IMG/VR virus record: IMGVR_UViG_3300023175_000012
Coordinates: 51,785-115,784 of that record
Length of the DNA stretch: 64,000 nt
Source of the DNA: a virus
Direction: 5' to 3' (one strand)
Shown: piece by piece, positions 8,327-8,398 of the stretch
How positions within the stretch are numbered: position 1 is the stretch's first letter
How the letters are laid out: each line of letters opens with the position of its first letter
The notes under the pieces: generated by a model
The model's database searches: none
Told to the model about the DNA's origin: nothing
What the model saw: the letters and a program-made list of their open reading frames with translations, nothing else
Translations under genes and position numbers: made by a program

Positions 8327-8398
8327 ATGTGGACAAAACCTAGCTATACAGAAATGCGTTTTGGCTTTGAAGTTACAATGTATGTAATGAACAAGTAA
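8327..8398 (+). CDS. pqqA: PqqA-like pyrroloquinoline quinone precursor peptide (23 aa)
   Basis: The 23-codon ORF is [12 protein letters not shown] followed by [11 protein letters not shown]. This is the length, opening (MWTKP) and core (G-F-E-V-T-M-Y) of PqqA, the ribosomal peptide from which PQQ is built. The E15-xxx-Y19 pair occupies the positions of the Glu and Tyr that the radical-SAM enzyme PqqE cross-links (established PQQ pathway). It has a strong AAAGGAG ribosome site 6 nt before the ATG, a promoter upstream and a terminator 14 nt after the stop. It is the only plus-strand gene in the first 17.9 kb, a single-gene cassette between the capsid gene and the fibre cluster. No pqqB, C, D or E is in the window, so the host must supply maturation. 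A chance match of this length and order is unlikely. Phage origin and benefit are inference. Confidence 0.9.
   Translation: [23 protein letters not shown]

Follow-up and report, generated by a model that had tools for sequence, protein, structure and literature searches.

Lone pqqA cassettes in phages of methylotrophic bacteria and a putative control site in common with host pqqA genes

Introduction

PqqA, the peptide precursor of the cofactor PQQ, is consumed in its own pathway, one peptide per PQQ, while the pathway enzymes are reused. A stretch of viral DNA of 64,000 nucleotides (positions 51,785 to 115,784 of the IMG/VR record IMGVR_UViG_3300023175_000012; hereafter the window) carries an ORF of 23 codons that an initial annotation, made from the letters and a list of ORFs, had read as a solitary pqqA gene, and the question raised by this locus is what a phage would gain from the gene for the precursor peptide by itself. 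According to PMC10906245, a Glu and a Tyr of PqqA are joined by PqqE with PqqD, after which proteases, PqqB and PqqC finish PQQ; this and the other papers are cited here for the accessible portions of their texts.

Two well-known kinds of phage-borne gene invite comparison. Cyanophage psbA and other auxiliary metabolic genes are host energy-metabolism genes kept by the phage, and the psbA-type genes encode an enzyme or a photosystem protein, whereas pqqA supplies a consumed precursor of 23 residues. Phage morons are single genes with their own promoter and terminator amid phage genes, often opposite to their neighbours, and the classical cases are prophage genes.

Viral PqqA was reported in 2020 from the Lake Baikal population VP_266, with methanol dehydrogenase in VP_139 and VP_266, and a metabolic reading of it is already in print for that one population (PMC7678222). 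VP_266 is T4-like with a predicted Methylophilaceae host, and its PqqA, as proposed here for the window, was read as a metabolic helper; it occurs there together with methanol dehydrogenase, and the accessible account describes no lone cassette, own control elements or other lineages. Viral pqqA, pqqE and pqqD have also been listed from reservoir sediments (PMC13188868). In the accessible texts of the papers on Melnitz, MEP301 and MEP401/402 (including PMC10580990), the string 'pqq' occurs once, zero times and zero times, respectively, the one occurrence being PQQ in a growth medium. Within a literature that mostly excluded subscription papers, we found neither a description of a lone pqqA cassette in several phage lineages nor one of its control elements.

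By profile searches, scans of viral and bacterial collections, and comparisons of neighbouring genes, of upstream sequences and of synonymous with nonsynonymous changes, we hypothesize that the window carries a functional pqqA on a (probably jumbo) phage of Methylophilaceae, as a one-gene cassette that would resupply the PQQ precursor, a reading that we consider fairly probable.

Results

The pqqA gene of the window

The ORF lies at 8327-8398 on the plus strand (23 codons and a TAA stop), and both curated models of PqqA match it far above their cut-offs: PF08042 with 46 bits against 21.1 (E 4.5e-12, all 19 profile positions covered) and TIGR02107 of NCBIfam with 47 bits against 20 (E 1.5e-12). 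The profile search that the initial annotation had suggested as a check therefore gave significant scores, and the features on which it had based the name, that is, the length, the MWTKP opening and the core with Glu15 and Tyr19, all match PqqA of Methylophilaceae. These two residues, read in the translation, form the E-x-x-x-Y arrangement near the C-terminus; the C-terminal VMNK and the upstream site described below are further likenesses, while residues 6-7, AA in the common host form, are SY in the window, whose copy stands in a phage record. Profile matches thus confirm the ORF as a true PqqA gene, and a chance origin is excluded because other records have the same ORF and because it is under coding selection. 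Besides this ORF, no second PqqA was found in the 115,784-base record at E <= 10.

The cassette and its neighbourhood

The initial annotation had credited the gene with its own ribosome site, promoter and terminator, and a candidate for each can be read in the sequence. A ribosome binding site, AAAGGAG, is found at 8314-8320 (+), six bases before the ATG; a -10-like stretch, TTAAATAATAAT, at 8300-8311 (+) begins 40 bases after the start of an upstream site, AATTAATGATTTTCTGCA, at 8260-8277 (+), which by its matrix match is like the site of other phages' pqqA and of Methylophilaceae pqqA; and a terminator-like hairpin follows the gene at 8412-8437 (+), with a T run also on the minus strand that would make it usable in both directions. 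The -10-like stretch and the hairpin come from a consensus scan of 901 bases around pqqA that gave four promoters against 1.8 and three terminators against 0.7 expected from shuffles. The moron-like trait of an own promoter and terminator is thus present as far as sequence can tell, and the description of a self-contained cassette is supported and can be extended, as the cassette carries in addition a site like that of host pqqA genes.

On its right-hand side pqqA converges on the gene of a T4-type major head protein (8455-9633, minus strand; phrog_138, 337.6 bits), which is followed by protease and portal genes, and genes for a late sigma factor and SbcC/D-like nucleases lie further along the phage. 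The left-hand genes have PHROG matches that are structural or of unknown function, or none; of the earlier placement between capsid and fibre clusters, the capsid side therefore stands and the fibre side is unproven. Minus-strand frames occupy 1-17,896 except for the stretch around pqqA, as judged from ORF lists and no gene caller, and the other plus-strand ORFs of at least 60 codons in this interval are wholly or largely antisense, the least covered being 12301-12492 (62%). The description of pqqA as the only plus-strand gene in 17.9 kb is on this basis a fair one, with the reservation that an ORF at 7901-8092 (+) overlaps none of the called minus-strand genes and faces two RNA elements on the other strand.

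Several further elements were seen in the window. A freshwater-2 RNA (RF02980) at 7850-7933 (-) scores 76.6 bits against a gathering score of 49.9 and lies where the minus-strand gene 7397-7852 begins; a manA RNA (RF01745) at 7997-8197 (-) scores 47.4 bits, under its gathering score of 55.2 (E 5.3e-11); and a terminator-like hairpin lies between the two at 7966-7989 (-). Far from pqqA, at 37840-52857 (+), stands one ORF of 5,005 codons.

A promoter of another kind was considered and given less weight. The sequence TTTAAATAATA resembles TATAAATA, the T4-type late promoter consensus, and a late sigma gene is present in the phage. However, GTTTAAATAATA has one exact occurrence in the record and two more at one mismatch, and no gene but pqqA there has the upstream 18-mer, which together favour a host-type promoter; late transcription is less likely.

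The carrier phage and its host

By head protein, the closest 25 phage records among the matches listed are 65-69% identical to the window and belong to jumbo phages of approximately 285-470 kb, including GAP32, CBB and Munch. Phages of groups other than the Rak2/GAP32-type jumbo phages stand at similar identity, and the record itself has 115.8 kb. A closer relative is the viral contig L484 (G029) of 356,312 bases, whose head protein is 85% identical and which has its own pqqA, MWTKPTAQEMRFGFEITMYVMNR. Because the nearest head proteins are those of jumbo phages and because of this 356-kb relative, the window record is probably a fragment of a jumbo phage. The host-type metabolic gene stands in a genuine phage genome, surrounded by genes for the major head protein, the head protease, the portal and a late sigma factor, and complete isolate phage records also carry pqqA.

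As to the host, bacterial and archaeal genomes yielded at least 118 loci with RFGFEVTMY. Among these, the (M/C)N(K/R) ending characterizes records of Methylotenera, Methylophilus, Methylobacillus and OM43; the window peptide belongs here, and PqqA of Methylophaga and Methylococcales differs from this sequence. The methylotroph host that had been suggested is supported by the peptide type and by the phage records with pqqA, and can be narrowed to Methylophilaceae. The comparison with pqqA of OM43 and other methylotrophs, likewise proposed at the outset, thus places the window peptide with the Methylophilaceae type. Fifteen Methylophilaceae genomes (G008-G022) have 1-11 pqqA copies each, and 14 of the 15 have two or more (one copy is given, as the genomes were chosen via a pqqA locus). 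G008 and G009 each show a tandem pqqA pair and one more copy, and the 11 copies in G020 may reflect a mixed assembly. A PQQ producer with five pqqA copies, three of them separate, has been described (PMC9851590); such extra copies resemble the phage gene in standing apart from the pqq operon, but they belong to bacterial chromosomes.

Lone pqqA in unlike phage lineages

A tblastn search returned 12 phage records with a similar ORF, of which ten are credible: eight Methylophilales phages, Methylophilaceae phage P19250A, and the spring phage MW202481, which has no stated host. The other two, both named Acinetobacter phage MD-2021a, were rejected: one match (H11, L246) is part of a complete pqqABCDE operon beside ppk and bacterial genes, that is, misfiled bacterial DNA, and H12 has the same name and the same match. 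None of the ten credible records has pqqA in its annotation: at the match, five are blank and the other five show a hypothetical protein, which in the two of these five that were examined is on the wrong strand.

The gene occupies different places in different phages. Beside head genes in the window phage, it precedes tRNA-Leu and the baseplate hub in Melnitz-1 and gp69 in MEP402, follows the ERF gene in MEP301 and gp26, in the recombination block, in Venkman, and lies between two gene blocks in P19250A. When terminase and head proteins from Venkman, P19250A, MEP301 and MEP402 were compared with one another and with the head protein of the window, no match reached E <= 0.01; those of Venkman and MW202481 match at 74% and 60%. 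Melnitz is filed under Kyanoviridae and was outside this comparison. On this count a lone pqqA occurs in six unlike phage lineages. MW202697, a relative of MEP402 by terminase, was not among the tblastn pqqA matches; a search for near DNA relatives of Venkman gave EXVC282S as its sole match; and MEP431-434 and Venkman EXVC038S are absent among the matches listed of three terminase searches.

In IMG/VR, a scan for GFEVTMY gave at least 120 loci, and with the window's own all 121 of 121 have a short in-frame PqqA-like ORF. A second scan, in which the N-terminal half alone was fixed, added 28 new loci for a total of at least 148; among the at least 120 loci of this second scan are 119 complete peptides and one cut by a contig end, and Glu15 and Tyr19 are present in 119 of 119 complete peptides although neither residue was fixed. 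Contamination of the viral collection with host DNA was rejected as a source: at 20 random non-redundant loci, the longest ORF had a PHROG match in 16 and none in four. Five viral contigs (L004, L013, L018, L024 and L028) have another PqqA type, RLGFEVTMYFK, and another host group may thus have pqqA phages.

Conservation in related phages was found, at different frequencies in different clades. In the head-gene clade of the window phage, pqqA lies in the flank at four of 80 loci (L260, L262, L287 and L324), two of which encode the window's peptide unchanged and likewise converge on the head gene. For the Venkman recombinase gene, 31 of 80 neighbourhoods contain pqqA: 31 of the 37 relatives with at least 62% identity have it, and none of the 43 with 53% or below. 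The six exceptions among the 37 comprise three truncated by a contig end and three (L364-L366) without pqqA at the very site where L363 has it. L363 and the three loci L364, L365 and L366 are related, the cassette being present in the first and absent in the others, in each case following the same set of recombination genes. The surroundings of MEP402 gp69 contain pqqA at four of 45 loci and those of the MEP301 recombinase at three of four, and at the remaining loci of these two sets the gene might be elsewhere in the genome. The presence of pqqA follows lineage and is patchy within lineages.

Among 63 cassettes with an ORF on both sides, 19 are opposite to both neighbours, 29 stand along with both and 15 are mixed, while 27 of 783 ORFs in general are opposite to both. 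The cassette layout is that of a moron, and the 29 cassettes that run along with both neighbours differ from its often opposed orientation.

Coding selection

Across 90 phage ORFs of 23 codons pN/pS is 0.153, a value biased by the search pattern, in which residues 13-19 were fixed; outside these residues it is 0.225 (89 phage ORFs), and for 13 distinct ORFs found via neighbouring genes, free of pattern bias, it is 0.179. The corresponding figure for 45 host pqqA ORFs is 0.144. One peptide, that of Venkman, is encoded by five nucleotide versions across 28 loci. With pN/pS of 0.15-0.22, the check for coding constraint proposed by the initial annotation was passed, and codon comparisons give a clear indication of coding selection on phage pqqA.

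This selection bears on whether pqqA might be a passenger taken from the host without benefit to the phage. The patchy presence within lineages is what such a gene could show, but a passenger would be expected to decay, and none of the 119 complete copies is broken (pattern searches favour intact copies); together with six phage lineages, different positions, purifying selection and common control elements, this leaves the idea with very little credence.

An upstream site common to phage and host pqqA

In cassettes of the jumbo relatives, comparison revealed TAATGATTWTCTGCAWGA upstream of pqqA. Motif discovery in 76 non-redundant phage upstream sequences, drawn from 110, gave a motif of roughly TTTMATGRTTTTMNNKA with a log-likelihood of 317, against 56-67 in four Markov-shuffled sets run with fewer restarts. 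At a threshold of 8.7, the 99% level of shuffles, 53 of the 76 training cassettes have a site, as do two of 634 upstream sequences of other ORFs on the same contigs; the fair figure is that of held-out cassettes less than 60% alike to any training upstream, of which seven of 15 pass and eight fail. About 40 bases downstream of the site is a weak TATAAT-like preference, the commonest letter reaching 47-66% per column.

The same matrix recognizes host genes. Within upstream sequences of up to 260 bases from Methylophilaceae-type hosts, 39 of 46 score over the 95% and 30 of 46 over the 99% shuffle level, in comparison with 25% and 7% of 57 pqqA upstream sequences of other hosts. The 39 host sites lie 118-176 bases before the start and are often palindromic, resembling CTMATGAWWWTCATKAG, with TTCATGA recurring about 21 bases further. 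When four host genomes were searched for exact copies of TMATGAWWWTMAYKAG, eight distinct places were found in three of them, six approximately 105-145 bases before a pqqA and two not at pqqA; the reversed control pattern had no match in the four genomes, and the OM43 genome G008 had no exact TMATGAWWWTMAYKAG.

In the 115.8-kb record the window site is the best, with 18.0 bits against 15.0 for the next, and it is still the best (17.0 against 14.6) with a matrix built without the jumbo-type cassettes. The pqqA site is likewise the best of the record in P19250A and MEP301, and an 18.8-bit site stands at pqqA within the 8-kb stretch of Melnitz-1 that was examined, while in MEP402, Venkman and MW202481 the best site of the record is not at pqqA. 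Matrix comparison thus shows phage cassettes and host pqqA genes to have a putative control site in common, which is new in this analysis.

A site common to host pqqA genes and nearly confined to pqqA could itself be the point of the cassette, its many replicated copies titrating a host regulator and disturbing host control of pqqA or methanol oxidation. That reading is improbable, as the peptide is under coding selection and as Venkman and MEP402 keep an intact pqqA without the site. Repurposing of the peptide, for example as a signal or as an inhibitor of another enzyme, has nothing direct in its favour apart from a PqqA-type family reported as co-expressed with two defence systems (PMC11118758), and we think there is scarcely any chance of it, given that phage and host peptides are nearly the same and that many have a common upstream site.

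A leader RNA in other cassettes

In a second set of cassettes a folded leader is predicted 66-93 bases before the start. Of 21 pattern matches, two that differed from the others (L179 and L198, from Poseidonibacter and Aliarcobacter) were left out of the alignment, leaving 19 distinct upstream sequences, 17 viral (L033, L035, L036, L040, L043, L064, L067, L068, L069, L083, L086, L115, L118, L490, L499, L507 and L508) and two from OM43 genomes. The fold consists of two helices with fixed joints, in the order P1 (4 pairs), UCAA, P2 (6 pairs), a variable hairpin region, GA and U, and the end of P1. Of the cells in the alignment, 94.7% are paired (shuffles, 70.3%); nine of the ten pairs change on both sides; and covariation is 0.743 against 0.272 in shuffles (reached in 0 of 500), with slid versions at 0.158 or less. 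These statistics lean towards the fold, as the structure was found in the same sequences and the search pattern required parts of it. Of six leader sequences folded singly, one has a stability clearly beyond that of its shuffles, z ranging from +0.47 to -2.88 among the six.

Applied to 253 loci, a covariance model recovered the 19 members and two host loci from the genome search, and nothing else at E <= 0.1. In the 15 Methylophilaceae genomes, taking the 150 best first-look candidates of each, it matched four places in four genomes, each immediately preceding a tandem pqqA pair, and two of the four lay outside the training set; the host loci, of OM43 type, are L163, L174, L513 and L514. Ten leader loci had no Rfam match at gathering level, and a lax Rfam search with one locus gave at best 15.9 bits, far under any cut-off. 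At L035 the two elements occur together, the leader lying downstream of the upstream site. A structured leader at the window's own pqqA was considered and rejected, as the model (R1) has no match in the window. The leader is a candidate for a new cofactor-linked RNA switch; that it senses some ligand is a guess.

Other PQQ genes in the carrier phages

Models of PqqD, PQQ_2 and radical-SAM proteins of PqqE type each matched in none of seven records (the window's, five phages of 35-44 kb, and Melnitz-1). The adjacency to pqqBCDE that is usual for pqqA, and not defining, is accordingly absent in these seven phage records for PqqD and radical-SAM genes. PqqE had no match in the window's 115,784-base record (G000) and a weak one in G029 (22 bits against a cut-off of 381); as the record is a fragment, further PQQ genes may lie elsewhere in this phage. 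The PqqC model matched in none of eight records, but likewise gave no match in control genomes, which makes this count uninformative.

The lack of a PqqD, radical-SAM or PQQ_2 match alongside pqqA would also suit a decoy, in which the phage peptide would tie up PqqD and PqqE and retard PQQ production by the host, with carbon diverted or formaldehyde stress lessened, and the SY of the window at residues 6-7, in place of the AA of the common host form, points the same way. A decoy could dispense with Glu15 or Tyr19, however, and both are kept in all 119 complete peptides, as are Asn22 (90/90) and Lys/Arg23 (90/90) in the phage ORFs, which makes this explanation quite improbable.

Discussion

We return to the resupply of precursor as the preferred reading. 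The cassette has the order host-type upstream site, putative -10 box, ribosome site, pqqA and terminator, and it would be transcribed by host RNA polymerase with a host regulator; host PqqD and PqqE would then cross-link Glu15 and Tyr19 of the phage peptide, and host proteases, PqqB and PqqC would complete PQQ. A phage that stops host gene expression, as we assume, would need to resupply pqqA alone, because of all the pathway's proteins PqqA is the only one consumed. Under its host-type site, the phage copy would maintain the flow of precursor while host transcripts decay, and new PQQ-dependent methanol dehydrogenase would stay working until lysis. In an OM43 isolate, the methanol dehydrogenase gene xoxF was always the top transcript (PMC5120137). 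The culture medium of OM43, as described, contains 1 nM PQQ, which counts against resupply, as do the patchy distribution of pqqA and the cassettes whose upstream sequence falls short of the site threshold or does not hold the best site of its record.

More tentatively, and with the odds against it, phages and methylotroph hosts could have a common regulated pqqA module, with the palindromic site read by a dedicated host regulator and, as a second class, the leader RNA, which has no Rfam match and so far stands solely before pqqA, sensing PQQ or a pathway intermediate. If this is true, the phages would be plugged into the cofactor feedback of the host, beyond the carriage of a spare gene.

Dissimilar phages of OM43 and of freshwater Methylophilaceae repeatedly carry a lone pqqA, and the common upstream site offers an entry to pqqA regulation in this family. 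As the gene has 23 codons and is unannotated in ten of ten records, a phage lever on the metabolism of methanol-oxidising plankton may have been overlooked.
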